Shown: positions 7,322 to 59,600 of the stretch, in pieces
How the letters are laid out: every line of letters begins with the position of its first letter
How positions within the stretch are numbered: position 1 is the first letter of the stretch
Assembly (NCBI GenBank): GCA_026874595.1
Contig: CM049316.1
Location: forward strand, 57,173,676 to 57,237,675
Direction: 5' to 3'
DNA: 64,000 nucleotides
From: Sipunculus nudus
Taxonomy: Eukaryota > Annelida > Sipuncula > Golfingiida > Sipunculidae
The notes under the pieces: model-generated
Database searches by the model: none
What the model saw: the letters and a program-made list of their open reading frames with translations, nothing else
What the model was told of the DNA's origin: nothing
Program-made: the position numbers and the translations under genes

Positions 7322-7434
7322 CTGCTCCAGTTCCCTGTTACAGCCATCGCAGAAAGCATGAAAACACGAAGCACATATTCTTTCTTCAAAATGACCAAGA
7401 CCAGGCATACACGCAGACTCACATATCGGACAAC
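7322..7434 (-). CDS. H1 RING2-like zinc module exon, catalytic Cys replaced
   Basis: A 113-nt exon, phase 1 to 0. The split codon gives R, then CPICESACMPGLG, HFEERICASC and HAFCDGCNRELEQ. Zinc-ligand spacing is C-x2-C-x15-C-x2-C-x4-C-x2-C, equal to HOIP RING2. The position of HOIP catalytic Cys885 is Phe, codon 7390-7388. All ligand cysteines are intact. The acceptor is ATTTCAG and the donor CAG|GTATAT. Confidence 0.85.
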
Positions 7435-7689
7435 CTGAAATTTATATATAATCCATACAGCGTGTAGTCACGGGATATTGCCGTCAGAATAACATGAGTG
7501 CCTCAGGAAACTATACATGCAATATTCTGTTTCTGAACATCATTTAATTTGTTTAAATCGTAAATTATGCATATTTATTTTTATAAATGTCGAATCAAGT
7601 ACCGCACTGTATATATGAAACACTGTACACTGTATAAAGGTTCAATAAAACATTAAAAAAAATTTAAAACGAATGATCACGATACGTAC

Positions 7690-7747
7690 GGGCTTGTTCC
7701 TTTTGAAAATAATTGCTGACGTCATAGTTTAGCATTGTGACTTTGGC
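7690..7747 (-). CDS. H1 pre-RING2 helix exon
   Basis: A 58-nt exon, phase 0 to 1, encoding AKVTMLNYDVSNYFQKEQA. It resembles the helical linker before HOIP RING2 and ends in C|GT, so that the split codon precedes CPIC. The H3 and H4 counterparts are 58 and 55 nt. The acceptor is TTTTACAG and the donor GTACGT. Confidence 0.7.
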
Positions 7748-7822
7748 CTGTAAAATAGAATAAAATAATTTTTCCATTGGTATCATATCTTAAATACAAT
7801 TCCTGTCTACAAACCTGTCCCC

Positions 7823-7826
<4 letters not shown>

Positions 7827-7873
<47 letters not shown>
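7827..7873. repeat. (TA)n microsatellite
   Basis: A simple TA run in the H1 intron beside the NZF1 exon. Confidence 0.95.
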
Positions 7874-7879
<6 letters not shown>

Positions 7880-7933
7880 TGACGATCGTTTACCTGTTAA
7901 ATATAAATTATATTTCTCAAAAAATAAAATTAC

Positions 7934-8194
7934 CTCCCGAACTTTTGATGGGTCCTGGCTAACCATATCCAACACATGTAGTTGAAAATTTTCGATTTCC
8001 TTTTCGATTACTGCAGATCTCGGTAGCGCTGTTTTACTGCTTGGGTCCAATATATCAAGTTTCTGTGTGGATGAAAACCCTTTCCCTGACAGTGATGTGT
8101 AGCACATCTCGCATATGTTCGTAGTGGGACGATTCAGGTATGTGCATACGGTACATTGCCTATTTACGTTTGAACCTTCAGCTACCATGCCACC
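7934..8194 (-). CDS. H1 NZF1 (RanBP2-type zinc finger) exon
   Basis: A 261-nt phase-0 exon, 87 codons. The finger is CTVCTYLNRPTTNICEMC, fitting C-x2-C-x3-N-x6-C-x2-C of ubiquitin-binding NZF domains. A hydrophilic tail ends in LDMVSQDPSKVRE, resembling the stretch before the RING2 helix in HOIP. The acceptor is TTATAG and the donor GAG|GTAATT. Confidence 0.85.
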
Positions 8195-9898: not shown

Positions 9899-10545
9899 CT
9901 TTCAAAAATATAGATTATTATTTAATATAGAATGATTTGCTGTTAATACAGAAAAAAACTGCATACGAAATGACACCGCACTAAGGAACAAGTTCATATT
10001 ATCAATTTGATTCTGCAACGGGAGGTATTGGTAAAACGCTGAACAAAAAGGAATTGTTTAATTTATATGAAACTCACAAATGTTAATAAAAGCAAACCAG
10101 TGCGCTAGAGGTAAAGTTTAAACAAACATAAATATAAAATACATGGTCAGCCATAAGACGCTTTTTTTAATCCAAGTGGTTCATTGTTTATTGCCGGAGT
10201 GCACATACTGGAGTAGAGTATTCTGCTATTATAACATACTGAACAGAAATATTAGCATTTCATAATCATTGCAAAACAAAATATGGGACTGACTAAGGAC
10301 TGGAAAAATTCTCTCACTTAAGTGCTGGTAAGCTCATACTCCCGTCTTTATATTGTGAGGAAGACTGTATAAAATGTTAGTTAATTTTTCTGGAATGGCC
10401 CAGCTAGTTTGTTGCAGAAAAAAGGGAAAGATACTGGAATATTCAACAGATACATAAATCGAGTGCATGACACTTTATATGTGAATTGGAAACCATTCTG
10501 CATAACATTCATACATATACATATATTAATAGCGCATATACATAC

Positions 10546-10680
10546 TTCGAGTTCCTTGTCGTCGCCCTCAGCTCTGATCTCCAGGGTACTGGAACACATA
10601 GCACAAGCTGTGGCATCTGGGGAGTTCAGATATGTACAAAAGTTGCAAGCATTCTGGGCCAGTGTCTCCTTCAACGATGC
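10546..10680 (-). CDS. H1 NZF2 (RanBP2-type zinc finger) exon
   Basis: A 135-nt phase-0 exon beginning ASLKETLAQ, with finger CNFCTYLNSPDATACAMC and an acidic tail. The H4 counterpart (61509-61357) shares KETL before the finger. The acceptor is TTACAG and the donor GAA|GTATGT. No counterpart was seen in H2 or H3. Confidence 0.85.
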
Positions 10681-10822
10681 CTGTAACACTGCCTATATAG
10701 AATATGGGGTAAAAATGACAACAAGCTGAAAATCATCGATAAAATATTATACATGTATTAGGATTACGCAATGTGTTATACTATGCAATTATATAATATA
10801 AAGGGCAAGTGTCCATTTGCTG

Positions 10823-13636: not shown

Positions 13637-13764
13637 CTTTACTTTTGCTCGACTGTTAATCTCATGCTGAAGAGGTTCGGCACAAGTTCTGCATCCGGCA
13701 AGTTGATGAACTGACACAGCTTGCATCGAATTTCCGTATCTGGCAATTCTTCAACTGGTGTTTC
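13637..13764 (-). pseudogene. H1 NZF3 exon with 10-nt deletion
   Basis: The exon starts ETPVEELPDTEIRC with CKLCQFINLPDAEL, then loses the 10 nt that encode the third zinc cysteine region in H3 and H4 (ELCISCAEPL). The downstream frame CAEPLQHEINSRAK is only readable with a shift. The exon is 128 nt, while the intact H4 counterpart is 138 nt. Splice sites are still good (GTCCAG acceptor, AAG|GTAGGT donor). Confidence 0.8.
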
Positions 13765-14478
13765 CTGGACACAAAATATAATACCTTGAGTTTTTCAGCG
13801 GATAATTAATGCCATTCTTGTCAACCCATTAGATTTTATCATTACCTATCTCATGTTAGAAATGTCTTATCCAAACCAGCTTTTAAGACCCGTATGGGCC
13901 TTATACGACCCTCTGAAATACTGTTGGAAGAAAATGCGCGAGTAGTTATCATCATTCATATTTCATAAAACGTGAATAAGAGAATTTTATATGCATCCAT
14001 TTATCATTTGTTAAAACTGGTCTTTTGTGTTACCGCAGCTTCCACGGTATATGATTCTGCAGGTCATGAATATAGGTAATGTATATCTGTTTAAGTTATA
14101 TTAAGTCTGTGATATTGACTGCATGTTTGCAAAGTATGGGAAGGACTTCCTTTACAGTTTGGTTCTTACATGACATATGACACTGACTTGATAGACATGA
14201 CTATGCATGTACACAAAAGCAAGATATTCTGAGACATGAGAAGATTTTTTATGAGCAAGACATTGTGTCAAGTTCTTTCTTTCCGGTTAATATTTATACG
14301 CTGTTCACATGCGATTAAATAGGAACACGAAATATTGTAACTATGCAACTGTGGATATATTGTTTTATAAGCAAGCTCTTGATGCATTGAGGAAAGGTAA
14401 GAAAAAAAATAAATCGTACATTTTGTAAGTTGTCCAATTTTTTTTTTCATATGGATACTGTGTTATTATACCACTTAC

Positions 14479-15231: not shown

Positions 15232-15250
15232 AGGGTAAGTATCGTCTTGC

Positions 15251-15456
15251 CGAAAATATGGCACCACGTGCTTAGACAGTTCATTTTGCATGCGGTGTGC
15301 TCCTCGGAGAAAACATTCGAGCTCTGCCCTGGCCAGGTATAGCTCTGCGGATATTTCCACTATGTCTTCCCCGTTCTGGACTTTCACATGACGGAATGAA
15401 AATCCACAATCACGTTCTATCGTGAACCCCATCTGGGCTAAGATCTCTTTGGTTCC
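15251..15456 (-). CDS. H1 PUB-like exon 3, GC splice donor
   Basis: A 206-nt exon, phase 0 to 2, with core EISAELYLARAELECFLRG. It is the same length as the H2 exon 26590-26795 and matches the H3 exon with TAELYLAEAE. The H2 and H3 donors are GTACGT and GTAGGT, but here the aligned site is TTTTCG|GCAAGA, a GC donor. The domain resembles the PUB region that in HOIP binds OTULIN and CYLD/SPATA2. Confidence 0.75.
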
Positions 15457-15958: not shown

Positions 15959-16111
15959 TTTGACAGTTCTTATGTCTACTTGGCCTTCTGGGTCTCTATA
16001 TCTAAATGTTCGCCATGTCTTAGACCTGTTGTGTTCTGGTTACGAAAGGTCAACACTGAACTGGTAGAGACGGTCAAGGGCTCTTAACAACTTCGGTCCC
16101 CAGTCTTGGGT
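15959..16111 (-). pseudogene. H1 PUB-like exon 2 with in-frame stop
   Basis: A 153-nt exon, exactly the length of the H3 counterpart. It reads TQDWGPKLLRALDRLYQFSV, then DLS, then TAA at 16042-16040, where H2 and H3 have lysine or methionine-lysine (LLKPED, ELMKPV). After the stop the frame continues PEHNRSKTWRTF and DPEGQVDIRTVK. The donor AAA|GTTGGT is weaker than the H2 GTGAGT. Confidence 0.8.
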
Positions 16112-16669: not shown

Positions 16670-16819
16670 CTTTGCATTTTCTTTTATCAAATGTATGAAA
16701 TCAAGCCGCCTATATTTCTTTGCCGGACTCATAGGAAGCTGTACAAAGCGATCTGCAGTATTCGGCTGAAATCCTAGCCACAACCTTGCTGATGCCTCCC
16801 TTCTGATTTCTTGAAGTTT
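16670..16819 (-). CDS. H1 PUB-like exon 1
   Basis: A 150-nt phase-0 exon. The peptide contains EIRREASARLWLGFQPNTAD and ends DFIHLIKENAK. H2 (25260-25409) and H3 (49233-49084) have exons of identical length and matching ends (ITVNAK, IKKNAK). The acceptor is ATTTCAG and the donor GTATAT. Confidence 0.8.
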
Positions 16820-17550
16820 CTGAAATTTTACAAATCACATCAATTAAGCCCATCCAAGACAGCATTAAAATCACAATGAAAACAATCTTATCATATTGAT
16901 CACTTAAATATAAGTTATTTCTAAAAGTTCATATTTATGGTTCTCCTCATTTGTATAAGTTTATAAACCGGAGAAACCATTTATCATAACTGAAGCATGT
17001 TTTGAAAAATAATTAAACAGGAGCCTTCTTTGTGTATTAAACATTTCTGATACTTTTCTATGTAAGCAATTCTTCCATATACAGCCTGAGAAAATGTGCT
17101 AAGTATGCCAACATATATATTCATCGACACCATACAGGCCACGTGGAATATCACGTGGAGACAACTTTGCAACCTTTCAGCGTCAATGCCACAGCAAGTG
17201 CACGTGACCCTATCCACTCAAAGGAAAATTACACCTACCAAAACCAAACACAACTTACGCTTTCAATAAGCTTGTTGATACGAACGGTGCCAAAATAATT
17301 AACCCACAACATTATCAAAAAAGTGGCCCATGGGCCATGACTATCAGCCGAATTCAAAGAACCTTGAACAATGAATAGAAGGACACGACACCAAGACTGC
17401 TCAAAATCATGCACAATGCCGAAAATCCTTGGAAAACAGGTTAAAGCGCCCTTATTAAGGGTTTTCAAGAAGATTTTACAAGGAACTACCAAGATACTGA
17501 GATAGAAGTTCTACGCCCAACTGTTACAATTTGTATGTATCTTACGTACA

Positions 17551-24917: not shown

Positions 24918-25259
24918 GTACGTCATTGTTATGAAGACGTTAATGTTTCAGTTTTTGTATGTGCGGGATGTAAATTTTTTTTCGTGAAAGGTTATTCAAT
25001 AAGTTTAAAACGAGGATGGAAAATGTAGAAATGACGTTCACAGATCGAGAAATGTGCTGAGAATATCAATTTTCAGATACGTGTGATTAAAATATATCGA
25101 AATGTCTGTTCTGTTTAGGAGATTATGAGCTTATGTCATATATAGAAACTGAAAATATGAGGAGTATCGTAAGGAACCATTCCTAGCCGATTTAGCTTTA
25201 AATTACAATGATGAGATGTTTCAGATATTTATTTTGTTAAATGCTTTACATTGTGTAAG

Positions 25260-25409
25260 GAACTTGAAGACATTAGGACTGAGACCTCGGAGAGACTGTG
25301 GCTTTGCTCGTCACCTAATACAGCGGATCGTTTCTTACAACTTCCTATCAGTCCAGCAGAGAAGTACAAATGGCTTGACCTAATACGGTTAATTACAGTT
25401 AACGCAAAA
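25260..25409 (+). CDS. H2 PUB-like exon 1
   Basis: A 150-nt phase-0 exon, acceptor GTGTAAG, donor AAA|GTAATA. The peptide contains ELEDIRTETSERLWL, then PNTADRFLQLPISPAEKY, matching H1 residue for residue over PNTADRF and LP.SPA.KY. Confidence 0.8.
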
Positions 25410-25735: not shown

Positions 25736-25887
25736 AGTCCTGACTGGGGACAGAAACTACTGCGTGTCTAGACAGGGTTTACAAATGTTGTGCAGATCTT
25801 TTGAAACCTGAGGATCAGAGGTCAGAGACATGGAGAACACTTATTTATGAAGATCCAGAAGGCAAATTGGACATCAGATGTATCAAA
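25736..25887 (+). pseudogene. H2 PUB-like exon 2 with 1-nt deletion
   Basis: Begins SPDWGQKLLRV, then reaches TAG at 25769-25771. One base later in frame it continues LDRVYKCCADLLKPEDQ and ends DIRCIK|GTGAGT. The exon is 152 nt against 153 in H1 and H3, consistent with one lost base. Confidence 0.8.
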
Positions 25888-26312: not shown

Positions 26313-26589
26313 GATTAAAACCCACTTTATCCATAGGAAGAGTAATCCTATTTACCCTTCTCCTGAACAATGTATTATTCATATGACCAAAGTAAAACAG
26401 CAGGTCAACGTAGCAATATATATTAAGTTATCAGGGTATATCAATAGAACACTCCTCTGAAATTCATCGTTCTAAGAGCACCCGTGAAGACCGAGTTCTG
26501 CTGCTTACAACAATACTACCAATCAAAGCTCTCTACCATGTTTGCATCAATAATACAGTCAATGGTTACAAGAACTTTTTTCATCTCAG

Positions 26590-26795
26590 GGAATCAAAGA
26601 ACTTTTAAACCAAATGGGTTATGCAATAGAACATAAGACTGGTTTGTCCTTCCGAGATGTGAAGCCTGATATTAAACAAGACATCGCAGGAATATCCGCA
26701 GAATTATATCTGGCAAAGGCGGAACTGGACAGTTTCCTACGTGGTTATCACAGCTGGCAACATGAACTCTCAATGTTGGTGCAGCCAGCTTTTCG
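26590..26795 (+). CDS. H2 PUB-like exon 3
   Basis: A 206-nt exon, phase 0 to 2, acceptor ATCTCAG, donor TTTTCG|GTACGT. The core is GISAELYLAKAELDSFLRG. Length and ends equal the H1 exon, but with a normal GT donor. Confidence 0.85.
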
Positions 26796-27538
26796 GTACG
26801 TTCGTTCATTATTATTATTTGATACAATATCAGAGTTGTACTTTTTGGACACTTATTACTTAAATGGCTAGATCTCAGGAAACACAAGTTTGAAAAATGC
26901 CCATGAAACTTTAGCCCATATATTCAAAATCGTAGTGAATCACAAAATCTAACCTTCTATGTTAATTAATACTAAACGAAGCTGGTCTTAATTGATGTCC
27001 ACAATGTGATCCCTCTGATGAACGAAATAATAGTATAAAGCATATATAAAGTACAGTACTGTCTATTGTACGGAATTAGAGATATTCCGTAAGAAAGAAT
27101 ATGTGTTGCCTGTTTATGTAAAGTTAATCTGGACTCGAGTAACATTGTCAAAAGAACTATGGGCTGCGGTACCAAGAGCGAGGGATTCGTGACTGATATC
27201 TCCAGACAAAATGTCTACCATCAAGTACTCCTTAAAACCAATATTCCTCAAATGTGATATCTCTAGATCAACTGTTTACCGAGCTATCAGGTGCTCCCTA
27301 AAGCCAGTGTTCCTCCAATAAAATGACCGGTCTCGAGACCTACACCTGTCCGTAAAAGTAAGAAGCATTTGCTTTGCTTATAGGTAAATGGACCTACAAA
27401 ACTGCTGTACAAAAATATCCGCAAAAGTAGCAGTATATATACTTTAATAAAACAAGTTGTGTGTTTTCATCTTTTTTCGAGGATACGGTCTTGGTTTAAT
27501 ACTCTACACTTGGCAGCCAGATATTTCTGTGTTTCACG

Positions 27539-27673
27539 GAAGCAACGGGAGTTTTAACAGAGGATGAAGTTAGATGTGAGCTTTGTCAGGGTATTAACAT
27601 ATGTGATGCAGAACTGTGTGCATCTTGCGCGGTACCTCTCCAGCGTTTATTGAAACTCCCAGCCAAACTGAAG
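27539..27673 (+). pseudogene. H2 NZF3 exon with broken acceptor
   Basis: The 45-codon frame EATGVLTEDEVRC, CELCQGINICDAELCASC, AVPLQ is intact and ends AAG|GTAATT. The expected acceptor TTTCAG|GAA, as placed in H1, H3 and H4, reads TTTCACG|GAA, so no AG is present at the exon edge. Nearby alternative AGs give the wrong frame. Confidence 0.7.
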
Positions 27674-28401
27674 GTAATTTTTTGGATAACCAACCAGTAA
27701 AATGCTTTACCATTCAGTAATCTGTTTATCTGTTGTCTCTCGCTCAGGATAAATCAATTCATATTGATGTCGAACTCCATCCAGTCACACCATACAGTTA
27801 ATCCATTTGCTTACCTCGCCAACCCTGCATCCTGATAGCAGTTGGCCTATGCTTTTTAAAACCTGATCAATGTTTATTGAAACAGCACTCCTTTAGAGCA
27901 TAATGACATAAAAAAAAATGTGGCAAAATTGTTATTCTGTTGATAGAACAAGAACTTATTAAATAACACAGGGATGATGATACAGGGTCTATATTTTAAA
28001 TGAACGACGCCATGACATATGTATACTTTCACATGCATACTTGCATTTATTTAAATTTTAAAGACTGAACTTTATTTTACAGGCGCAGGGTTCGGTAAAC
28101 ATGACTCCATCCGTCAAACAGGTTATACGAAATAACAAGCCTGTATATCGAAACAAAAATCACCGGTCAAAACATAATCTTTGATAAATACAACAATGTA
28201 ATATATGATTTTTTGATTTTGATAAATTGTCACAGATCCAATTTGCAAGTTTTGAATAAAATAGGTATTAATATGTGTTCTCCTACAGGGAATATTGTAT
28301 CGTCAAGCAAAATACAAGACACTTTATTTTCAATCCTGTATTTCTATTGATATTCATATGGCCCGTGTATTCTTCTTTTACGGGATTCTGGAAAAATAAG
28401 C

Positions 28402-28578
28402 GGAAGTGACGACAAACGACCATGCAGTGCGAGCACATACTTAAACCCTGCTACTACGAACATATGCGAGATGTTTTATTCGTCCATGTGTTCAAAGCCA
28501 AAGTTACAAGGGCAAAAGTTGACAAGAAGCAGTCAGATATCAGGGCCTGGAGCTGCTGGGTTCACGCATGAACAATAG
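28402..28578 (+). pseudogene. H2 NZF1 remnant lacking zinc ligands
   Basis: The frame reads RPCSASTYLNPATTNICEMF, compared with CATCTYLNPSTTNICEMC in H4. The second and fourth zinc cysteines have become Ser (28432-28434) and Phe (28474-28476), so the finger cannot bind zinc normally. The frame ends at TAG 28576-28578, and the charged tail of other copies is not recognisable. Confidence 0.75.
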
Positions 28579-28642
28579 CAGCACAATCAAGCGTTCACCG
28601 GTTTAGCTCAAAACAAATCACCAATGGTACGTACTAAAAATA

Positions 28643-29099
28643 TTAAAGGTGCCCATTCACCTACCTTTTGCAAAAAAAAAAAAATGGTATCCTCTCTGTA
28701 TAAATTAATGATTTAAGGGTAATTCTGGTTATGAAAGTCCTCATAACGCCTCCGTGAAGGATGTATGGACTTGTTTATCAACAACCTATTTGTAAACACA
28801 GCAATGTTGAAAAACGTGAAAAACGTATAACCTAAGGTGGTTGTTTGCAGATATGCCGAGGTAGAAAGGTCACTTATTGCAAAATGCCATTTGCAATGCT
28901 CCGCTTTATTGACTTGCCACTAGATGCCCTTGTTGAGTTTGATTTGATTATTTTGGCGGGCCCCACATATTATAAACACGTTGAAATTAACAAAACAAGC
29001 AGCCTATGTGAGGAGGATATCCACGTTTTCTGGTCTATTTTTATAAAAGCTCAAAGAGATTAGTTTATCAAGGTCAGATAGGTGATTGGGTCCCTTTAA
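28643..29099. mobile_element. TTAA-flanked MITE, copy 1
   Basis: Bounded by TTAA at both ends, with inverted termini TTAAAGGTGCCCATTCACCT and, from the right, TTAAAGGGACCCAATCACCT. A second copy lies in opposite orientation at 60547-61018. TTAA targets suggest a piggyBac-type mobiliser. There is no long open frame with a known domain. It lies in an H2 intron. Confidence 0.7.
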
Positions 29100-29921: not shown

Positions 29922-30033
29922 GCTGTCCCAAAGGCAAGTCTCATGTCACCCGGACCTTGGTGTATTTGATGAAAGAAGATGTTCTGTTTGTGCATGTACT
30001 TTCTGTGATGCTTGTTTTAAGCCCGTTGAACAG
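29922..30033 (+). pseudogene. H2 RING2-like exon with frameshift
   Basis: The 112-nt exon (113 nt in the other copies) starts TGT CCC AAA GGC, where the second cysteine is Gly, and then loses one base. From there the right frame reads CHPDLGVFDERRCSVC and CTFCDACFKPVEQ|GTAAGG. The HOIP catalytic-cysteine position is again Phe. Confidence 0.8.
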
Positions 30034-34690: not shown

Positions 34691-34799
34691 GCACACAATT
34701 TCACGTTCCAGTTGAACATAATGTTAAAATGATCTGAAACATGAACATTTTTAAGTACACGTGTGACATGCTAGTGCAATGCAAGTACTAAACACTTAG

Positions 34800-37165
34800 G
34801 ACCCGAGTATCAGCATCAATTACACAAACATCACTCCTGAAATACTGTAATGAAAGTATACAACATAAAATGATTGCAGGTGGCATCACTAGTCTTGAGT
34901 ACGAGAAAGCCATCCAAGATGTATGGACATGCAACATTTCAGGCAGATACTTCAAACCACTCTTGGGCTATGTGCACAAATGCATGAAACCCAAAAACAT
35001 TTGTAAGTGGCGCCACAAATCTTGTATACAACAGAACTATCCGAGATGTATGGGCGTGAATTATTTCAGGCTGATATGTCAATTCAATCTTAAGAAATAA
35101 GCAGGAGCCAACACTGTGCAAAAATTGTTGTAGGCGGCGCCATCAGTCTTGTTTACGACGAACCTATCCGATATGTATAGATATGCACAATTTCAGGATG
35201 ATATAACATATCCTTCCTGAGAAATAAGCAGGTGCATACATTGTGCAAAAATCATTGTAGGTAGAACCACCAGTCCTGTATACGAGAAAGCCATGAAAGA
35301 TGCATGGACATGCCAGAATTTCAGGCAGATACATCAAACTTCTCTTGAGTCAGGTGCACTTGGCCGACTAAACTCAGCTGAGGCAGGCAGTTGCCCCAGT
35401 TGAACCGGAACAAATTGCAAGCTGTAGCTACTGCACTGACGGAACGTTTGACCTGCATTTGGCTGTACTGACTAAACTCTTGACCTGTTGCCTAATCTGA
35501 TACAGATAATTGTCTGCCAAAGCTATAAATAGATACAGACTTAAACTTGGACTGTGGCCAAATCTTAAATAGTTGGCAATCTACCAAGCTATATAGACAC
35601 AGACAAAATATTGGCTTGTTGGTAATTCTGTTTACACATACTGGAATAATTTTGCTTACCATGTTTAAGCTGACATATTCATAAGATTTTTTTATCAAAA
35701 TGTTTAGGATTATTACAGATGCCTATTGAAAGCTGAATCAGAACAAGATATATTTTTTTTTCATGGATTTATCTTACACATAATTTGGATATGGACACTA
35801 ATTATTTATGTTACCTGTACAGCTCTGCTTATATACCCGCAGAGCTCAGTTTGTTAATACAATAAATCTACTAGCTTTGTTTACCAAATATCTCATAGTC
35901 CAGCAATGAGGCCAACAGATGAAGGTCCATAATTCAGCTAAAATAATTTAAGTAAACTTGAACAAGGCCACTAAAAGTCATCTTTGACAATGGTACAGAA
36001 TTTGAAACGAGTTTTGCTGAAAAGACTATTGCCTTCCCTAAGTCTGATATAATCTTACATGGCCACTTCAGACCTCATTTAGCTTTCTATGACTCAAAAA
36101 ATCAATGAACCTGATCCATTTTTATACGAATGAGAGATCATTGCAGTAGGATAATGTTTGCGAAAACTCAAATCATTTGGTTGACAGTTTCATCATAAAA
36201 CATTTCCAATGATGTGGCGGAAAGAGACTAAAACGAGTCTTTTGCCCGTAAAAAAAACAGATAAATGTAGGTGGTGCCACAAAAAAACCTCAATTTCAAA
36301 TACGATTCATGTGGACAACATTTGCACAGAACTAAGTGATGGTAGCTCCTGTTGCTTCTGAGACTGTAATGTTAGTATGCTTACTTGATCAAATTACTCT
36401 GTTCAAATTCCTTTAATTCCTGCCAAAATTCACTGAACTCAAATTTTTTTTAAACAAACTTGGACCTCTTGGATCATTTCTGTGAAATATTGAACAATTT
36501 GGCTGAATGATTTTAGAGAAAAGGTTTTCAAAGTTTTTTTTTGCCTCCTAAAATTCAAGTTGATGTAGGTTGCGCCAAAAAAAAAACTCAATTTCACAGC
36601 ATTTGACATGCGACTGATTTTTTCATAAAATTTGGGAACGCTAGCTTCTGCTGTTCCTGGGAAATTATGGATTAATGTACTCATGACCGATGACTCCCTT
36701 ACATAAAAGGTCGATGCAGGTTGCGCCACCACTGCCTCAACTTCAAATAAGAATCATATGACCAACATTTGCATAAAATTTGGGGATGATAGCTCTGGCC
36801 ATTTCTGAGATTGTAATTTTAGTATGCTTTTTTGCCAAATGGCAAAGTTCAGCTTCCCGTAACTCGGCCATATATCACCGAACTGAAACCATTGGAACAA
36901 ACTTGAGGATTGTTTCTTGGATTATTTCTGTTAAAAAATATTGAACAATTTGGATGGCGGTTTCTTTTAGCTTTTCCCCTGTAAAATCTAAGTCAATGCA
37001 GATAGCCAAAAAAAAAAATAAGCTCAACCCGATAGAGTTTGACATGTGACTTATTCTTCCATAAAATTTGGCGCTGCTAGCTGTGAGTTTTAGAGATAGC
37101 AAAGGTTAACGCGAGGACCACGGATGACGGACGACGCTACGCCATCGCATGAGCTCACAGGTTTG
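34800..37165 (+). repeat. Interspersed repeat B, about 2.3 kb (matches repeat A)
   Basis: Colinear with 4860-7135 in the same orientation. Shared blocks include TACGAGAAAGCCATCCAAGA, GTCTGCCAAA.CTATAAATAG, TCTGTTTACACATAC and the end GCATGAGCTCACAGGTT. It lies outside the HOIP-like genes, so the two copies are separate insertions or a duplication. It carries no gene that I can recognise. Confidence 0.7.
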
Positions 37166-40465: not shown

Positions 40466-40599
40466 ATCTTCAGCAGCATATGCTGACACTTAGCTAAAGC
40501 GACTATGGTTTCTTCTATCTATAAACTTGAGAAACTATATTTTTCACCAAAAATGGGGGCCTATATGTTGAATCTCTCTTGAGAAAAGAGCATTAATTT

Positions 40600-42110
40600 A
40601 TTTTACAGGAACAGGAAGGTAGGTGGCGCCACCTGTCTGCTTTTCAAGAAAATTTTCCAAGAGGGATAGACATGCCAAATTTCAGACCTATACCTTGAAC
40701 CAATCCGGAGATGTGAGCAATTTTCACCCAAAGCACACGTACAGATGGACGCCACACTAAAATGATTGCTGATGGCACCACCAGTCTTGAGTACAAAAAG
40801 TAGCAGTCCAAGATTTATGGATATGCACAGTTTCAGGCCAATAGGGCAAATCACTCCTCAGAAAAGGGTATTAATTTATTCTACAAAAACGGGAAGGTAG
40901 CTGGCGCCACCTGTATGGTTTATGACTTTCCAAGATGGATGGCCATATATAAGTCAAGTTTGAAACCCATAAATCAATCCAAGCTGGAGTTATCATCAGG
41001 AAATGAATTTTTGGACAGGTGGCTCCTGTGACTTCGACCTTGTGACCTAAAAATTGATACAGGTTTTCCTTTATTGGCAGGTGAACTATATGTGCAAGAT
41101 AAAAGGTCAGAGATTAAAAAGTTTGGCTGAAAAAGCATCCACAATCTTTTCAGAGATGGTTGTCCTGTGACCTTGACCTTTGACCTCATGACCTCAAAAT
41201 CAATAAGAATCTTGTTTTATTGATGGGCAATATATAAGTCATGTTTGATACCAATATATCATTCCAAGCTGGAGTAATCATCAGGGTATGAATTTTGGAG
41301 AGATGGCTCCTGTGACCTTCACCTATGACCTTGTGACCTAAAAATGGATAGGGGTCTTCCTCTATTGGCAGGTGAACTATATGTTCAAGATAAAAGATTG
41401 GCTGAAAATGCATCAACAATCTTTTTAAAGATGTGTGTGTCCTGTGACCTTGGCCTTTGACCTCACGACCTCAAAATCAATAGAGGTCTTGTTTTATTGA
41501 TGGGCCATATAATAAGTCAAGTTTGAAATCCATATATTAATCCAAGCTGGAATTATCATCCAGGAACCTAATTTTTGGACAGATGGCTCCTGTGACCTTC
41601 ACCTACGAGCTTATGTCCTCAAAATGGACAGGGGTCTTTCTCTATTGGTTGGTGAACTAATGTGCAAGATAAAAAGGTCTGGAATGAGAAGTTTGGCTTA
41701 AAATGCATCCACAATATCTTTAAAGATGTGAGTCCAGTGACCTTGACCATAGACCTCATGACCCTAGAACCTATAGGGTTCTTACTTTAGTGGTGGGCCA
41801 TACATAGTCATGTTTGAAATCCATTTGTGTCAACACTGGAGATATCATAAGAAGTGTGTGATTTTCACCAAATATAGAAATATTAAAGGTCAAGGCCACT
41901 CTCATGGTAAAGGTCATGACCCAAATTTAAATAAACCTCATCCCATAACCCATCTCTCTACATGTTCATCATATGAAAGAAATCTGTCCATTAGATTTTT
42001 ACCTATAATGCTAACAGTACTGTCAAATGGCAATTATGGGATTATTAAATGGCGTAAAAACAAGAAAAGGATAATAGGTGGCGCCACCAAGTTGGTGGCG
42101 TCAAGTTAGA
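40600..42110. repeat. Tandem array of about 280-bp units with TGACCT half-sites
   Basis: The block CCTTTGACCTCA, then GACCTCAAAATCAATA, then TTGTTTTATTGATGGGC, recurs near 41177 and 41453, with a diverged third near 41740. Between them 'GTGACCTTCACCTATGACCTTGTGACCT'-like blocks also repeat, split here by variation. Each unit carries several TGACCT (AGGTCA) hexamers. The array is bounded by GGTGGCGCCACC blocks at 40620 and 42080. Non-coding. Confidence 0.75.
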
Positions 42111-42700: not shown

Positions 42701-45700
42701 TTATTTTGACACTCTCCAGGACTAGAACAGATTTCTGATATCGGCCGTGATTCAGACAAAGACGGACCAAATGACCGAGACTGTGCTAAAGTTAAAAGTC
42801 ATGTACTGACCTCTTGTATGTTGGTGTTCTCTAACTTGAATTCGTCTGGTTCTCCACCATATTCTTGTCTGATAATCGTTTTCAGTATCTCATCCTTCAT
42901 CGCACCTGCTGGATCCAATTTATGGGTTTGAATGATCCGTATAAGATATTCCTTGTACGGGTAACTGGTAATTGCACAATAAATGTAAAGATCAGAATCA
43001 TATATGACCAATTTGAATGCAAGCATTTGGTTAGATAGCGGGCGCAGTTGCCTGACAATCGGTGTTTACATATAACCGGGCCCCCAGAGGCACTCGAAGA
43101 AACATAGGAATTCTGTAGGAGCACTTCAGACAAAAATAAGAGTTTGTAGGGATTTTCAGCCAAATATATATGTGAAATATATGGGTTTTCATTGCACAAA
43201 CACTGTTTTGATCGCATATATCCTGTGACCAACGGGTTTAATAGGTTTGCTCAATAGTTTTGGACAGCTGTACTCGTGGGACCGCAACTCTTACATGCAC
43301 AAACTACAAAATAGCTGATTGTTTTCAATAATAACAGGTCTATATAATAATAATATAAGAAACACGACTGTGCAGTGAATAATTATAGGAAAATGTAGGA
43401 GATAATGATCTCTATATAAGATGGAAAATACAGGAAATTATAAGAGACAGTCTTTTCATAGGAAAACAGAGAAAATATATGAGTAAGTAAAAGTCCTAAT
43501 ATAATGATTGTACATATATTCTCGGAGTTACTGGTTTGCTAAATCAGGACTGGACAGAATAGATTCGTGTATATAAACAACACGTTTTCATATTATTTCG
43601 ATACAAAGAAAATGATGAATTAGGCTATATTTTACCACAATCTGTTTCCTTCTGTAGCTTTGTGCTCGTTTTCAAGGTCTACAGTGTTCCATCCAAGACG
43701 GCTTGATTCCTTTGCCAACCAGTCACGGTATCCATCATGTTTTATACCATTTTCCTTTAATGTTACATCACACAAGTTAATGTTATGGGGTCATTTTAAA
43801 TATATGAATGAAGATAAATTCTTGTATAAGATACATTGTAAATGTGCATAGTGTAAATTCCAATCTTAAAAGTTTCGAAACAGTTTATCTGCATTTGTTT
43901 AAAGAAAACATATAATTAAATCTAAAAGTAAATATAACGCTTACTTTTAAAATACGTTTCAACTCTTCAAGTGGACAGTATTTAATATAGAAGACACAGT
44001 CCCGCGGATGGTGGCAATGGGGGTCTCTTGGGCATTCTCTAAATTTCCTGCAGTCCTGCCATTCATACGTCAAGGAAAATATGAGTACGATTACCGCGTT
44101 GTGGGTAACACACATGATTAAATATAAGTGAACGCTTCATCAAACTTTAGCTCAATGGATCTTTTAAACATATTTCATTGAACTATAGTAACTAAATCTT
44201 ATCAGTAGACATGTATCCTAAAACTTTTTCAATCAATGTAACTGATTTTTTCAGATGTGACATTGAAATGTGATGTTATTTTTCTGATTAAGGTATTAAT
44301 ATAAGTTAGGAATACATGATTCCATAAAAACTCTTGTCTGAAATCTGATGTTTCAAAATAATTTAATCAGAGAAGCATATTTGAAAAATGACTGGAAAGT
44401 GGCTGAGAAGCGCATTAATGCAAAAATAAGAGTAATGCAAATACATATAATGAATGTACTGTTGTTAAGGAACACCATTGGATATTGCAATATTAGTAAT
44501 ATCGCAGCATGATGTATGGAAACAAAATGGTATATTTGTACAAAGCCATTACCCCTTTGAAAGGAGCTTTGCATCCATCACAGAAACTGAACGGACAGTT
44601 GGAACATTTACGCTGTCTAAAACCCCAAAGTTCTCTGTGGCATACCGATCCACATTCCGGGCAGTCTACATGAAATAAAATGTGACAGTACTTAAATGAC
44701 TCCGTAGGAGAAAAAGCCAGACCTTATACAAATCATACAGAATAGGAACCTTTTTTAACAAGAAGGGCTTCCAAAATACCATTGCAGCTCACTGAGTTCA
44801 AGCACATAGTTTTCATAGAATATAGTACGTATAGTGGCATAGTGCATATTGAGACATACTTAAACTTACAGATTTCATCCTGTGTCGTCTGAATTTTGCC
44901 TTCATCTCCGATAGCAGCACCAGGCTCCTGCAAGTTAATGAAAATATAAACGCTGTAATGTAGGTAAATGTCTGAGAGTGTACGTAATCTACGTACGCCT
45001 TACACGTAATGAACACATAACCGGTTAGTATACCACGTAATGTAAAAGTATGAAACTTGTATAGGCGGTTGTCATGTAATGTATACGTTATCACCAATGA
45101 CCGTAGTGTAATGTAAACATGCGCGGTTATATGCAGAGTGACAACGCCACTGTGAAGTATACGTAAGCGTTAATTACTATGATATAAAATACAACAAAGC
45201 ATTAATGATATACGTAAGCATTAATGATATACTAGCGACTACAAAAGTTTCCGTTTGACTATCCGTTTAATCGATATTGACGAAATCCATTATCAGACCT
45301 TTCAACAGAACGTCGTTCGTTCAATAGTAAACTTGTACTTGCGCTGGATTTATTAGGAAAAAAAGAGAATTAGTATAACGGGTTCACCTTGAGACCGTTC
45401 AAGGAACGTTTGGCGTCTGGTTGGATCATCCCTGTATGTTCTTCTGCTTGTCCTGGTTCATCGTTGTTTCCCGTTGGGAGATCATCGGAATCTTGCTTGG
45501 CAGTGGTCCCATTATCAATAAGGGACTTGTAACACATCAAGCAGATGTTTGTGGTGACTGGGTTCATGAAGGTGCATGTCTTACATCTTCTCGCTTTCGG
45601 GTCCCGGTCTGTGCAAAGCTCACTCTAAAAATAGGTGATTAGTTTACTCATCTACGTTTAAGGTCAATTTTTATTAACTTACACCCGACTAGTGAAAAAC

Positions 45701-46038: not shown

Positions 46039-49000
46039 AACACTGGCATAAAAATGTTCTTCTTGGCGTGTGGCTCGCTTGATTTGTCTGGGCAGTGTTT
46101 TATTCGCAATAATCCGTGTTTAAGCATATTTTTGGGATGATGATAACTAAAAAACTTCTAAATGAGTAGGGTAAGCACCCTTCCTTCAGCTTAAAATATG
46201 ATTACATCTTCAATTATCAAACACCAACACCCCGCTAAAACATGATCACTGTTTTCAAATGTGGTTTAGTTTGTTGTTCTTTAAATCTAGTATTCTAGGT
46301 TATCTGACAATATGCATAACCTACCATTTTTGCATTTCCATCTTGATCTGGAGGGACCGGACAATCCAGAGGTTCGGCGCAGGATATACACAGCTCCGCA
46401 TCAGGAAGATTGATAAACTGGCAATGGGAACACCTCAGGTCAGTCCCAAACGAGGATCTAAGGGATTCCTAGAACATATTTGAGAAAAGGTACGCTTAAT
46501 TCCGGCCAACAATATCATTACATGCATGTGATACTAATAGATTAACTGAATACTATACTTTTACCATCGAGACATTTTCTAGCTAACACTTAAATCAAGA
46601 AGTCATTGCTTCTTCATGTTTCGATTTTGTCAATCCTGTTCGTGCATAAGTTCATAAAACAAATTCGTACTACAATATTGGCCAAAATTAATTAAAGTTT
46701 GAAATATTTCGAAAATTTTCCTTTTATATTAATCAATCATCTTTAATATTTCATTAAATGTGTAGGTAATGTCCTCATCGTAAAAGAAAATCTACCGAAC
46801 AGAATATATGACAGTTAATTAATTCTGTGAATGGAATACATATTTTATAAAATAAAATAATTCTTGATTAGATAAAACTGTCGCAAAGAAGATCAATTAT
46901 CATATGTTTGACAGAATGCTTCTCACATCTTTTTCTGTGGACCCTGAACTTAAAGACTGGGGAAAATCGGACTTCTCAGCAAGAAGACCTGTCTGCTCCT
47001 TTGCATAAGACTCTGTAATACTGGACTCCTGAACTGGCGGCTCGGGAACATCTGGCACCAACTCAAAGGACTCCAGACCGGTTGACTCGCAGGCACACTG
47101 ATCTGTTACATTTGAAGCAGACATACAAAGGTCTGCACCATTCTGTTCGTGAACGTTTGGATCTCTGAAATCTGTCCACTCGTGTTTTTCAGGGATGCCG
47201 TCTTGCACCTCTGGCTTTGAAGTTTCCACTTTCCCAGAGGAGGTTTCTAGAGAACCATTCGCCGCGACAGCTGTGGAATTTCTGTATGTAATAAGCGAAA
47301 ACAGTATTCCCAACATGATTTTATTTTGTTAAGTCCAATTATGACATATATAAGTGACACAGCCGAAATTACTTTTCCACGTCTTTTATTAAGTAATTGT
47401 TCTTCGTGTCAATAAATAAGTTCATATTATATAAAGCACCACGTAACACTATTTGAGGAGCTTGGCTCTGAGCTAAATGCTCATATGTAATTTGATGTCA
47501 GGACTAAAAATAAATGAAGATCCTATCGTAATTGGAAGCTGCTTGAGTAATTTAAAAATGCTACTTCTGGTTAATTAGCAGATAACCCATTTGATATTAG
47601 GCAATATATATGATTGTTCCATTGTGACAACGGTTAAAATATATATCTTACTGGGAAAACAACACACTGTAATAATTCGAGTATATTTCATTGATTGTGT
47701 GTGTATGTGTGAAAACCTACTGAAACTTGGGAGGTACCAGACAGTCAAACAGATTGCCAAATGGGTGGGATCCACTAAGATAACATGACATCTCAGCTTC
47801 TGCTAGATACAACTCTGCTGTCAGCTCCACTTTCTCCTTCCATACAGATGAATCTTCCTCATATATGAAGGCATCAGGAACCTCTTTGTATCCAAAAAGC
47901 TGCAGCAAGTGTATGTGTCCCTGAAAAATATTCCAGTTCAATGTTGTAAGTGTGTGAAGAAAGTTAATCCAGTGGGGATGTGGATGTACATCCAGGAACA
48001 TCAGAAATTAAATCTGTCATTGATGCAGACAGGCACGTGGAGGAGGATTTCAGTATTTATGACATTGTGGAAGTGACAAATCGACATTGACAAAGATATA
48101 TGCATTCTGTGAGTAAAATTTTTTTTTTTCATATTATTATCTGCTTAGAAGGTAATGACTTCCATTTTTCCTACCACAATCTTCAAACGAAATGTGCTTT
48201 GATAAAAGTTTAACTTTACCAGATGATAATCTGTTATTGTTTAAATAAATACACGTGTTTAAAAGTAAACTGTTCATTGACTTTGTTTAATTCATGATAT
48301 TCTTCTATTCAAAATATCAGTCAGTACAACTTTCCCGAATCTTTGGTTTACCGAAGAAGGACCATTAATATTCACACACAAATAAAACTTAACTTGTATA
48401 CTTCTTTTTTTTCCATCATGTCACATTCATAGCGCCGTTTATGAACTGGGTTCCTAAAGAGTATTAGCCTTGATATAATTAAAATACTCATACATGATTA
48501 CTCACCTCGATGTCTTTTAAGATATCGAGGTAGGTGGTGTCCGCGAAGCTTATATAGTCCCACATGTCACTCCGCTCTTCCACTGGCTTCATTAATTCTC
48601 TACCAAGTGAGTAAAACTGGGCTAACGCATGGTCAAGCCTTTCTTCCCAGCCATGTGCCTATGCAGGAAAGTTCACAAAGTGTTACCAATTAACTCCATA
48701 TTCAAATGTGAGTAAAAAGAGAGAAGTTAATGTTTTCATATGAACCAAACATACGTCGTTTTATTGTCGTATATCTCAAGCATCAGCAGATGATTGAAAA
48801 CTGGGAAACCGTGCTCGAAATTGTTATCCGTTATGCAAACATTTATTTTGAAGGACACATTTAAATATATGTGTGTGTGTGTGTGTGTGTGTACTATCCC
48901 CGCAGCTGTTTATGGAACTAATTGCTACAGAACGGCAGCATGAAGACGGTGTATAATTCATTTTGAGAATCTGTAAGACTGTAACATGTATTTTTCATTT

Positions 49001-54953: not shown

Positions 54954-55127
54954 CAGTGAAACCTCGAAATTACGACCACCAACGGGACCACGACAAAGTG
55001 GTTGCATTTTAGAGGTGGTCGTCTAAGCGAAGTCTGATATATGGCGCAAAAAAAATTGGGACCGAGATAAAGTGGTCGTTATTTTAAGGTGGTCGTTAAA
55101 CCAAGGTGATCGTTAGGCGAGGTTTTA

Positions 55128-55130
<3 letters not shown>
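54954..55130. mobile_element. Pogo-like MITE, 177 bp
   Basis: Starts CAGTGAAACCTCGAAATTAC and ends GGCGAGGTTTTACTG, an imperfect inverted pair, flanked by TA on both sides as expected for the Tc1/mariner-pogo group. Internal 'GTGGTCGTT' blocks repeat. It is followed directly by a TA microsatellite (55131-55176). Confidence 0.8.
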
Positions 55131-55181
<51 letters not shown>

Positions 55182-55561
55182 CAATGTGCATGTAACTTGT
55201 CAAAAGGCACAAGTAACAAGTAATAAAAGGTCATGTGGTCATCTGACTGACCGTCACTTTATCAGAATTCCGATAAATGTCTTAATTTTCCGAGCAGACA
55301 GAATAACTAGATGATAGCTGGAAATTTTAGAATCACCCACACGCACTAACCTGAGTTCGCATTACCGAAGGAAGCATTATATTAGATTTTACTTGGATAT
55401 CACCTATAATGCGTCATATCAAACACAAAATACATTTTGCGAATATGGTAGGAATAAAAGAAAGCCGTATCTTAATTACAATTTATAATCGTTTTATTTT
55501 TCACATACAATGCTCCTCTATTTCAACCTTGTTAATAATGATATAATAAAGAAATTCACTC

Positions 55562-55604
<43 letters not shown>

Positions 55605-55640
55605 TATTTATATATAATAAATGTGTATATATATAATATA
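55562..55640. repeat. (TA)n microsatellite, interrupted
   Basis: A TA-rich run with TATGTATA and TATTTATA breaks. Confidence 0.9.
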
Positions 55641-56613
55641 TGGGCGTGTACTCATATATACTCATGCCTTAAGGCCATACAGTATAAATTAAATATGGCA
55701 TCTATGCCGCATTATCTGCTAATATATGAATAAAAATATCCTACAAAAAAATGTTACCTCTCCAAATCCACGAGGAGACTAAAAGTATATTCACACCTTA
55801 ACGAATACTGCTTTCGGTGCAAGAGTGGATTAACCCGCCCGCCTGCATGACCTGACAGCGGCAAGTATCAGCCTATGGTTGGATCCTACTGTTGCAACAA
55901 ATAAATTGGGAAGCACTCAGCTGTCCGGTACATGCCAGGCAATCAGGGACAGAGTATTGTGGCGGACTAATGAGAATGGTTCGTCTCTAAATGATGGACC
56001 TGTACGCCCGACCCAGTGTTGGCTGGCCCGGGAAGACCTTGGATATAACGGTTGGATATAACGCCATTAAAGGAAGGTTTAAAATATAGTACAACTCGAG
56101 GAAGTGCTATTGAGAAAAAACTATGAAAAGTTAAGTTATACATTTACTCATCGAGGGAAATAAAAGACGGACATGGGGTGATCGCTATTGATCAGAGGAC
56201 CTATGGTCAGCTGAGCTAAAAACATACCTTAGGAAAATGGAAATATGAGTACTATTTTTAATATTTAACTTTATTCTTTTTGTCACCAACTTTATAACAA
56301 AAATTGCTTTCTTTGGCAATTTTGTTATCTCCTGCATTGTATATCATACTTATTCCTAGTCAACTTCTGATTATGATTGTCTCCATAAACACATATTTTC
56401 ACCATCATGCAGGTTCCACTCTGATTCGCCTTATCTCAATGGGCAATTCTTCTGTATGAACTGCAGGATAAAGATAGAGAACGTTCCAACAAAAGTGCAA
56501 ATAAACACATTTCATAATGTCCTGCATCTTAAAACCATGTAATTTCAAATGCGTAATAGAAACATGTCAATGAGCAAAGCATTAATCAAATTAAACGTTT
56601 ATTGTTGTATTCT

Positions 56614-59600
56614 TCACCGGGGTGCAGTTATAGAACAATGCTATAAAATATCTATCAAATTAATTGTTAATAAAGAAGTGATGTTCATATTACAAATACT
56701 TTTATTAGGCAGGATTACCTCGGTAAGTGCGTGGTCGTTGATGCCCGTCATATCGATGTCAAGCTCACGTCGAATGACGGCCGTGAGTTGCTTTGTGTTC
56801 ATAATTACCGTAGGGTCCACTTTGTGTTTGTTTATAATGCCGATAATGTATTCTGCATATGGTTTGCTGTAAAAAGTAAAAAATATAAATAAGTTATTTT
56901 AACATAGATATATAATAGTTTTCCAAGAGAACGTATATAAAGATATTTTGCGTCTTCAAATTTAATTTAAAAAAGTTACTGTTAAATTCCAAAACAAACT
57001 TTAAATAAAAGTAATTATTGCTATTTATTAAGTGCCAAAATGACGAAAAATAGAATTAAAAATCTACTGCTGATAATACAAACACGTGATATGTTGCTTT
57101 TGAATAACAATGCTCTACCAAAATATGGTAATTACAGGAGACATTACCTACCGAAACAATTGAACACAAGCACTTGTACAAGATAGCTACCTTTTGCAGG
57201 GAACAAACAAATGAAATGTACCCACCACAGCCATTTAAGTTGTCCACAGTTTTCTTTTGCAACAACATCTTGCTTACACCCGCGACGTTCAGCCTCCATT
57301 TTTAACCAGTCAAGGTAGTCTTTATAGTACAGTCCATATTTCTTTTGAAAAGAATATGCATAGCAGAGAGTTAAAAATCAGGACAGTTTTGTGAGTGTAG
57401 ATATATTAAGGTAATCATCGCGTCATTGCATTGACAAGATGGAAATATGTGTTAATGAAAGGGAGGACCGTACTGATTTGGTGCCCTCATTTATTTTATT
57501 TACTCAGAAAGTTTTGAATAATAGGGTGTCTTTTTGTATTATATGTGTGAGCTAGTCGCCATAGAATGAATACAAAAAATGAGTGTTAGGTCTTTTGACT
57601 AGCGCTTAAGATATTATTGACAGATGATGAAACAGTCTCCATATTCAGAGACTTGTTTTGTCTCAGTCATGTACAATATGTTTATAAATAGATATCTTTC
57701 GGCCAGCGAGTTTAGTTATATGTTACAATTTATCATGTCTAATTGAAGAAATGCAGGCCATGGCAGAAAAGATAAAAAGCAAAAGATTACATCCCTAATG
57801 GAAATCTGCAAGAACATTTTTGTCAGTCATTAAACCAATATGAGAGTTTGTTCTACATTGATTTTATTTGCCGTCGAAGAGAGAATACTCACATGCAGCA
57901 TTTTCTTTAAAAGTTTTGTCGAGAAGTGTCGCAGGTAGAAAACACAGTCCCTTGGATGATGACAGTGAGGTTCTTTGGCACAGTCTTTTGTCTTTGTGCA
58001 GTTCCAAAAGTACCAAAAGTACATCTATGCAGTGGCGTCAACTTTTTTTTAGATATATACATTTTTAAATATATCAGCGTCTGTATGACACATTTGAAAT
58101 ATATATACTTAATCCTATTTCAAATATATTACAAGGTTAACAAATATATTATAAGGTTTTTTTTAATTAAGGTATTATATTTCCAGTATAAGTTAATTCT
58201 AAACTAGGTTTCGACATAATATTTCATTGTAAACACAAAAACGAACCAGTCTATATAACTTTAAATATTGATATATGTTATTTGCAATATATGAATATTA
58301 TTCTCAGATTAGTGCCGGGGATGATAACACTGACCACCCCCAACCCCCCAACCCTTTGCCAAAAGTGGAGAGGGGGATATATAAACCCACGTAACCCTTA
58401 TATTGACGCCCATGAGTACATCTAACATGTAAAAAGCGTGCACGTGCGCGGTTACGAATACACAAACGCACGTGAACTAATTACTATACAGATGATGCAT
58501 GTACATAAGGGTCCTGAAGGCACGCAGGGCCTTGAACAAGCAATGCAATATGTAATTAGCAAGACATTTGAGAATATGGTGAGATGAGAATATATATATC
58601 GTCCATTGTCCGTTCTGAGACTACAGCTGCTTAGGTCTTTGTAGCTGTGAAAATGGACGAATGGGTAAAGCCTTTATGTTCGCTCTCATTTTATTACCTG
58701 TGGACCAAAAGGGTGCATTTAATGCAACATACCTGCTCAAATGGTCTACTGCATCCATCACAGAATGCATAACCACAAGAAGCACAAGTCCTTTCTTCAA
58801 ACGGTCCAAGGTCAGGCAGACATTCGCATTCGCACTTAGGACAACCTGATGAAAGAAAGATAAATATAATATAAACAGTGACGATAATTAAAAATAAACT
58901 TTAAATAAAAGATTCTCTCTTGATGACAGATTAAATTTACTGTCACTCTATCTTTTGCAGCTGGAGTAAAAATTATGCTTCAACAATATAACGTTGTTAT
59001 ATTATCACACACACACACAAGCGGGATGTTGCTACTTTTACAATGTCTATATATTTTCTGTATAAAAATCATTATGTAAATTCCTATTTTGTAGTTTGTA
59101 AACACACAAATAATAAATCAAAATTTTATAACCTTAATATATATCATACATAGTAATTATGTAGTAAAATAATATTTCGAGAAGAATAATACATACGGCC
59201 TTTTTCCTTTCGAAAATAATCGCTGAAATCGTTTTGTAAAGTGACATAAACCTATAATAGAGAAGAGAAATCAAATAATAATGTGTTTTTCAACAAGCAT
59301 TTACAAAAACATATGGTTAGGGACCACACCAGTTATAATTCAGCCATATCATTCATACGATTCATAAGTATTTATTTGTTGCCAAGACATGGACAAATAA
59401 ATCGAACGTTCAAATTTGGAAAGGGGGCACCTTTGAAAGCCTTAATGCATTCTGTCGCACCAAGGGTTCACAGTCTTCTTGGTCTTCCATATTTCCCACA
59501 GGATTTGTTGTTGCGTCATTGTTGAGAGCTTGTACCACCCCATGGGCCTTTGTCTCAGGTGGAGTTTGGTTTCCAGTGAGTGAGGTATAGCACATCTCAC

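Follow-up and report, generated by a model that had tools for sequence, protein, structure and literature searches.

In the RBR (RING-between-RING) ubiquitin ligases, RING1 binds the ubiquitin-charged E2 and a cysteine of RING2 accepts the ubiquitin (PMC9834252, PMC13061254). Linear chains are described as having a single known ligase, the linear ubiquitin chain assembly complex (LUBAC), whose catalytic subunit is HOIP (RNF31; PMC8245127). In the LDD of HOIP, Arg935 and Asp936 contact the acceptor ubiquitin and are required for activity (PMC7125101), and in its PUB domain Asn102 holds the key position in the pocket that binds OTULIN, an interaction abolished by the N102D substitution (PMC4017264); as regards molluscs, one HOIP has been reported in Aplysia (PMC9334734). 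The stretch considered here, referred to as the window, comprises 64,000 nucleotides of the 1.43 Gb genome of the annelid Sipunculus nudus (assembly GCA_026874595.1, contig CM049316.1, i.e. C11:57173676-57237675) and contains the RING2 exons of four HOIP-like copies, H1 to H4, belonging to a larger tandem cluster. As judged from sequence, this cluster represents a clade of HOIP paralogues that has lost the catalytic Cys885 and, as far as the searches reach, RING1, IBR and UBA, while the remaining fold was selected, and that probably encodes proteins which read ubiquitin, or serve as scaffolds or decoys, without catalysing its transfer.

In translation, the RING2 motif of H1, H3 and H4 reads C-x2-C-x10-F-x4-C-x2-C-x4-C-x2-C, with all six zinc cysteines, and H2, with four of them, is equally spaced; at the position of HOIP Cys885 the four copies have Phe, encoded by TTT (codon positions derived from the exon starts).

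7322..7434, minus strand: RING2 exon of H1, 113 nucleotides, phase 1 to 0; motif 7432-7340, Phe codon 7390-7388
29923..30033, plus strand: in-frame part of the RING2 exon of H2; motif 29923-30015, with Leu and Arg in place of the first two zinc cysteines, Phe codon 29965-29967
44553..44665, minus strand: RING2 exon of H3, 113 nucleotides; motif 44663-44571, Phe codon 44621-44619
58733..58845, minus strand: RING2 exon of H4, 113 nucleotides; motif 58843-58751, Phe codon 58801-58799

The first-pass annotation of the window had reported Phe at the Cys885 position in the four copies, an ungapped distance of 16 residues between zinc cysteines two and three and the retention of the zinc ligands in H1, H3 and H4, all of which the translations bear out, the Phe codons lying exactly where it had placed them; its exon length of 113 nucleotides holds for H1, H3 and H4 and not for H2, where the exon proposed by the aligner has 100 nucleotides (29934-30033) because the acceptor differs. 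A shifted alignment bringing a cysteine to position 885 was considered and rejected, since the nearest cysteines are at 878 and 890 and the zinc pairs on both sides fix the register.

The region examined was the window with 40 kb of left flank and 160 kb of right flank, 264 kb in total, coordinates labelled window-scale being the window numbering continued beyond both ends. Eight Phe-bearing RING2 exons were found there, namely H0 to the left of the window, H1 to H4 within it and H5 to H7 to the right. Against the whole genome, for which all match counts are lower bounds, the RING2 of H7 gave at least 16 matches, of which 13 are in C11:56.95-57.36 Mb, one, H8, at the edge of this region and two, both weak, elsewhere. 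The tandem cluster thus covers about 0.4 Mb and includes at least 13 RING2 copies, with H8 as an extra copy at its border (kept outside the 13-copy RING2 count; counts of 14 include it). Five further copies of the cluster were read from short stretches, four having Phe (TTC) and one (L045) Leu, so that position 885 is Phe in 12 of the 13 copies, Leu in one, Lys in H8 and Cys in none of the 14; these and the other residue counts across the cluster copies are not independent of one another. The variation of the Phe codon (TTT in eight copies, TTC in four) shows that Phe has been maintained through synonymous change. Among the zinc ligands, C871 and C874 are present in 12 of the 13 copies and the remaining four in all. 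His887 and Gln896, which had been announced as changed as well, are indeed so in H1 to H4 (Glu, Glu, Gln and Glu at 887, and Ala, Thr, Ser and Ala at 896, respectively); across the family this extends to His887, lost in the 13 Phe or Leu copies and present in H8, and not to Gln896, as two of the 13 copies have Gln.

Outside the cluster, Cys885 is retained in 11/11 HOIP-type copies found on C11 and C16; the RING2 of the canonical HOIP (C11:16.607-16.63 Mb) reads ...SLARGGCMHF..., with the cysteine. The 11 copies belong to 25 places matched by IBR_1 in the genome; the other 14, on C1, C4, C5, C7, C8 and C124, were not counted as HOIP-type (six were read, i.e. L003, L052, L055, L057, L060 and L061, L004/L062, L058 and L059 had no readable match and five were left unread). 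A separate cluster lies at C11:18.70-19.18 Mb (L005-L008, L050, L053, L054, L056, L064, L065 and L067-L069) and comprises HOIP-type copies in which Cys885 and Asn102 are present and RING1 is matched; the catalytic-looking form of HOIP is also expanded in this genome.

The exons flanking RING2 encode PUB, RanBP2/NZF-type fingers and LDD, in the order found in HOIP, and the phases read from the DNA are those of the canonical gene, in which the RING2 exon runs from phase 1 to 0 and the first LDD exon starts in phase 0. The RING2-LDD part of H7, an intact copy outside the window, aligns with human HOIP chains at an E-value of 1.9e-13, ungapped across the RING2 cysteines; solely HOIP structures were matched in this search, at E-values up to 0.01. 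The PUB domain of H7 matches HOIP PUB structures (E-value 6.7e-11) and the LDDs of H4 and H7 reach 26 and 24.8 bits against Pfam E3_UbLigase_RBR (cut-off 23). With the order PUB, NZF, RING2, LDD and common intron phases, the cluster copies are HOIP paralogues by descent.

The canonical RING1 exon has 17 matches in the genome, none of them in C11:56.95-57.39 Mb, and no match by tblastn in the 264 kb; the canonical IBR exon has five, none in the cluster, tblastn with IBR queries yielding chance-level scraps in the 264 kb, and UBA_HOIP has seven, again none in the cluster. The apparent absence of RING1 is a strong negative and those of IBR and UBA are weak ones, as only five and seven places were found in a genome with 11 Cys-type RING2s. 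Besides, the intron between the last NZF exon and the linker exon, after which RING2 comes next, measures no more than 179-190 bp in H1, H4 and H7, and this leaves no space for RING1 and IBR; the corresponding gap is about 460 bp in H3 (DNA read by eye) and 2.5 kb ahead of the linker exon in H5, where intron length is uninformative. Hidden RING1 or IBR exons were accordingly rejected, having no match in the searches and only short introns to lie in for H1, H4 and H7.

Further residues of known importance are changed in the domains that remain, the loss of Cys885, on which the first-pass annotation had focused, being one among several together with RING1, IBR, UBA, Asn102 of PUB and Asp936 of LDD. 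Asn102, the cornerstone for binding PUB-interacting motifs (PIMs), is found in none of the 13 cluster PUB exons read: position 102 is Asp in ten (H1, H2, H3, H5, H7, H9, the copy at window-scale -36711, L070, L071 and L072), Ser in two (H8 and the PUB modelled with H0) and Glu in one (L073), vs. Asn in 7/7 outside the cluster (canonical HOIP and six matches to PUB exon 1). Two of these PUBs, both of the H3 type, are in the flanks: H9 (window-scale 97774-99280, L031), to the right of the window, has an NZF at about 90.9 kb and no RING2 found beside it, and the copy at window-scale -36711 to -38763 (L024), to the left, has its 3' part beyond the stretch examined. In the LDD, Arg935 is kept in 7/8 cluster copies and Asp936 in 1/8 (H1), the latter position being Asp in canonical HOIP and Asp, Asp and Glu in three other LDD exons outside; the Cys/His residues of the LDD finger are retained in 7/8, with one change in H6. 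The T-Y/F...M signature of the NZF is conserved as CTYLN...CEMC in H1, H4 and H7 and CTFMN...CLMC in H3, and on this residue pattern it may correspond to the T-F/Phi motif. The latter contacts the Ile44 patch of ubiquitin (PMC5413910).

Selection was measured on RING2 and on RING2-LDD. Under a codon model, omega is 0.185 for RING2 (13 copies; log-likelihood -1130.7 vs. -1178.6 at omega 1) and 0.254 for RING2-LDD (seven copies, H6 being omitted as a fragment; -2956.6 vs. -3036.7), the values at omega 1 being the best among three and six kappa values, respectively. The RING2-LDD fold has been under purifying selection, and this pertains to the past. The first-pass proposal of a dead and still folded RING2 gains in strength from the ligands kept, this selection, the Cys in 11/11 outside copies and the lack of RING1, IBR or UBA matches in the cluster.

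On this reading, the clade encodes a protein arranged as PUB, zinc fingers/NZFs, linker, RING2 and LDD, and has lost UBA, RING1, IBR and the Cys885 of RING2. A protein lacking RING1 could not receive ubiquitin from an E2 as RBR ligases do, nor could one lacking Cys885 hold it as a thioester; since both are gone, a ligase activity of the known kind is not expected, and neither RING1, IBR and the catalytic cysteine of a HOIP-type RBR ligase nor the UBA of the LUBAC core was found in the cluster. As the NZF signature is kept and the RING2-LDD fold selected, a ubiquitin reader, scaffold or decoy is proposed instead, which would probably act in linear-ubiquitin signaling on chains that HOIP and HOIP-like enzymes of the same genome, with their cysteine in place, assemble, while being uncoupled from HOIL-1L, no UBA having been found, and, through the change of Asn102 to Asp, from recruitment of the OTULIN type.

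The state of the individual copies bears directly on this proposal and is best appreciated from the exon maps of the window, in which some small exons of H2 (zinc fingers) and of the 5' part of H4 are doubtful, as are, outside it, some of H6, H9 and H5 (PUB to last NZF).

3182..3335, minus strand: LDD exon 3 of H1 (gene model)
3526..3644, minus strand: LDD exon 2 of H1 (gene model)
3948..4058, minus strand: LDD exon 1 of H1, zinc finger HCHHPKNC
7690..7747, minus strand: linker exon of H1, next after the last NZF exon, equivalent by position to the IBR-RING2 helix
7934..8181, minus strand: last NZF exon of H1, CTVCTYLN...CEMC; the linker begins 186 bp on
10542..10688, minus strand: middle NZF-type exon of H1
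13658..13784, minus strand: first zinc-finger exon of H1, with a frameshift inside
15250..15456, minus strand: PUB exon 2 of H1
15959..16111, minus strand: PUB exon 1 of H1, with one in-frame stop; Asp at Asn102
16670..16822, minus strand: N-terminal exon of H1
25257-25409, 25772-25887 and 26590-26803, plus strand: N-terminal and PUB exons of H2; Asp at Asn102
27521..28697, plus strand: zinc-finger exons of H2, the aligner's last exon there containing one stop
31251-31361, 31993-32111 and 32365-32521, plus strand: LDD exons 1-3 of H2
44055-43945, 43754-43636 and 42964-42850, minus strand: LDD exons 1-3 of H3
44870..44927, minus strand: linker exon of H3, 58 nucleotides, phase 0 to 1, read by eye in replacement of the aligner's choice
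45396..45608, minus strand: NZF exon of H3, CKTCTFMN...CLMC
46325..46457, minus strand: first zinc-finger exon of H3
49236-49084, 48658-48506 and 47920-47721, minus strand: N-terminal and PUB exons of H3; Asp at Asn102
56710..58003, minus strand: LDD exons 1-3 of H4, the frame of exon 3 being the E3_UbLigase_RBR match
59197..59251, minus strand: linker exon of H4, 179 bp past the last NZF exon
62687-62517, 61509-61357 and 59655-59431, minus strand: the three zinc-finger exons of H4

Elsewhere in the window, retroelement-like open reading frames are seen at 391-2333 on the minus strand, one resembling a tyrosine recombinase (an impression on reading, unsearched), and short repeat families are common to several places (4891-5144, 34791-35400 and 40583-41028).

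Several observations, to which the weak negatives for IBR and UBA and the long gap of H5 also belong, weigh against a clade of selected non-catalytic proteins. H1 is degraded, PUB exon 1 carrying a stop and the first zinc finger being broken by a frameshift, and so is H2, which has lost zinc ligands in RING2 as well as two of the four cysteines of the NZF at 28423-28476; both look like decaying genes, a correction to the first-pass annotation. No PUB exon was found upstream of H4, the first and middle zinc fingers of H5 were undetected, and only a tail fragment of H6 is present, its linker carrying a stop. Moreover, only five of the ten Asp102 PUBs (H1, H2, H3, H5 and H7) are joined by the models to a Phe RING2, and H0 has a Phe RING2 modelled with a Ser102 PUB, the model linking an H8-type PUB and possibly fusing two genes. 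Taken as single exons against Pfam IBR_1, H3 (3.2e-5) and H4 (1.2e-4) match better than chance would give and yet stay under the curated cut-off; H1 does not reach significance, and no match was obtained with the frame of H2. The youngest pair, H0-H5, has a dN/dS of 0.56, which suggests that constraint may have loosened recently, and as H1, H2, H4, H5 and H6 are degraded or incomplete, some of the signal of purifying selection may date from before their decay. The copies could then be relics of HOIP duplications heading for loss and functionless by now, the most serious alternative though an unlikely one. Indeed, H7 is modelled with 12 exons, 560 codons, GT-AG introns, a single frame and a terminal stop, and H3 can be read, in compatible phases, from its N-terminal PUB exon through LDD exon 3, its linker exon and PUB donor being chosen by eye and its first coding exon not found; on these models, both look intact. 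Furthermore, most pairs are close to saturation at synonymous sites and yet the zinc ligands of RING2 are kept, with the low omega given above.

Selection could alternatively have acted chiefly on PUB and the zinc fingers, making of these proteins adaptors that bridge a deubiquitinase in the manner of SPATA2, with RING2-LDD as structural support. The H2 frame at 26554-26868 has a SPATA2_PUB-like best match, under the cut-off, and the PUB of SPATA2 binds CYLD without recognizing PIMs (PMC5413910), which would fit Asp102. However, RING2-LDD is still conserved in H4, for which no PUB was found, and of the omega values for RING2 and RING2-LDD that of RING2 is the lower; PUB-centred adaptors appear unlikely.

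The non-catalytic reading has also to be confronted with position 878, on which the first-pass annotation was silent, and which is Cys in 14/14 cluster copies, including H8 and the degraded H2 (codons 7411-7409, 44642-44640 and 58822-58820 in H1, H3 and H4), vs. Phe in ten and His in one of the 11 Cys885-bearing copies (in L053 and L054, which have a wider first Cys pair, 878 was located by counting back from Cys885). With Phe878-Cys885 in the canonical type and Cys878-Phe885 in the cluster, the two residues appear swapped, and Cys878 could be structural, zinc-related or reactive. H8 (RING2 at L042:7487-7597, i.e. window-scale 211487-211597, C11:57385162, plus strand) combines Cys878, Lys885 and His887; it is a HOIP-like gene at the cluster edge, with a PUB matching HOIP PUB structures (E-value 3e-13), an IBR-like stretch (19 bits, under the cut-off of 24.3) and no RING1 found. 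In a tree of 126 columns and 11 rows, a split supported at 100/98 parts seven Phe rows from H8 and three Cys-bearing rows (two of the latter pieced together from adjacent RING2 and LDD exons, the trait-bearing RING2 columns being retained). On the best tree, two changes are needed to account for the loss of the cysteine, and a single one suffices in 16% of the bootstrap trees, which disfavours a single origin including H8; H8 may be a second, independent loss, its placement being poorly resolved. Conceivably, the swap would have moved a ubiquitin-accepting or otherwise reactive cysteine seven residues upstream, the RING1-less module working in trans with another E3, or with an E2 or RING1 so supplied, or else carrying a different modification, and H8, among the Cys-bearing rows on the best tree, having arrived at this arrangement independently. 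Nevertheless, Cys878 does not coincide with the active-site position when the modules are aligned without gaps, as set by the spacing to both zinc pairs, His887 is lost in every Phe or Leu copy, Asp936 in 7/8 LDDs and RING1 was not found in the cluster, all of which, besides the uncertain position of H8, makes a relocated nucleophile very improbable.

Finally, that the module is an unrelated zinc finger merely resembling RING2 is scarcely credible and refuted in practice by the exon context, i.e. PUB, NZF and LDD in HOIP order with canonical phases, and by the exclusive matching of HOIP structures by H7, despite the weakness of single exons (IBR_1 scores of 12 to 24 bits for H1, H3 and H4; no HOIP chain among solved structures for the 38-residue H4 exon alone). 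An IBR rather than a RING2 was similarly set aside: H3 and H4 fit IBR_1 better than IBR and H1 slightly prefers IBR, neither significantly, NCBIfam searches of three exons were uninformative, and the exon context decides.

A non-catalytic clade of HOIP paralogues would mean that one animal genome contains Cys-bearing HOIPs and, separately, at least 13 paralogues apparently devoid of E2 site, catalytic cysteine and HOIL-1L site, most with an altered deubiquitinase pocket, the natural Asp102 being identical to the laboratory mutation N102D. No RBR-derived family with a retained dead RING2 was found in the literature on inactive RBRs, pseudo-E3s, molluscan HOIP/RBR and LUBAC evolution, the subscription literature being mostly outside reach. 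The cluster would illustrate a pseudo-enzyme route in an RBR ligase and permit a direct test of the role of RING2-LDD without catalysis. Within LUBAC, SHARPIN is a non-catalytic relative of HOIL-1L. Like SHARPIN, the cluster proteins would be members of the LUBAC family retained after the loss of RBR catalysis; unlike them, SHARPIN derives from HOIL-1L and binds HOIP via its UBL (PMC5413910), whereas the parent of the cluster is HOIP and RING2-LDD is kept. LUBEL, the Drosophila orthologue of HOIP, is likewise an invertebrate HOIP with altered accessory domains, itself devoid of PUB, but its RING1-IBR-RING2-LDD is kept and active (PMC5413910). As in the concept of pseudo-E3s (PMC13061254), the cluster proteins derive from an E3, are predicted to be inactive and presumably have a structural or regulatory role, with selection and zinc ligands both in evidence. 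Compared with HOIP itself, they differ by the UBA, RING1 and IBR not found, by Phe, Leu or Lys for Cys885, by the new Cys878, by the loss of His887 (Phe/Leu copies) and, in 7/8, of Asp936, and by Asp102 in most PUBs; they nonetheless share with human HOIP and with the copy of Sipunculus nudus at C11:16.607-16.63 Mb the succession of PUB, NZF-type fingers, RING2 and LDD, the phases of the RING2 exon and of the beginning of LDD, and the zinc ligands of RING2 and of the LDD finger.

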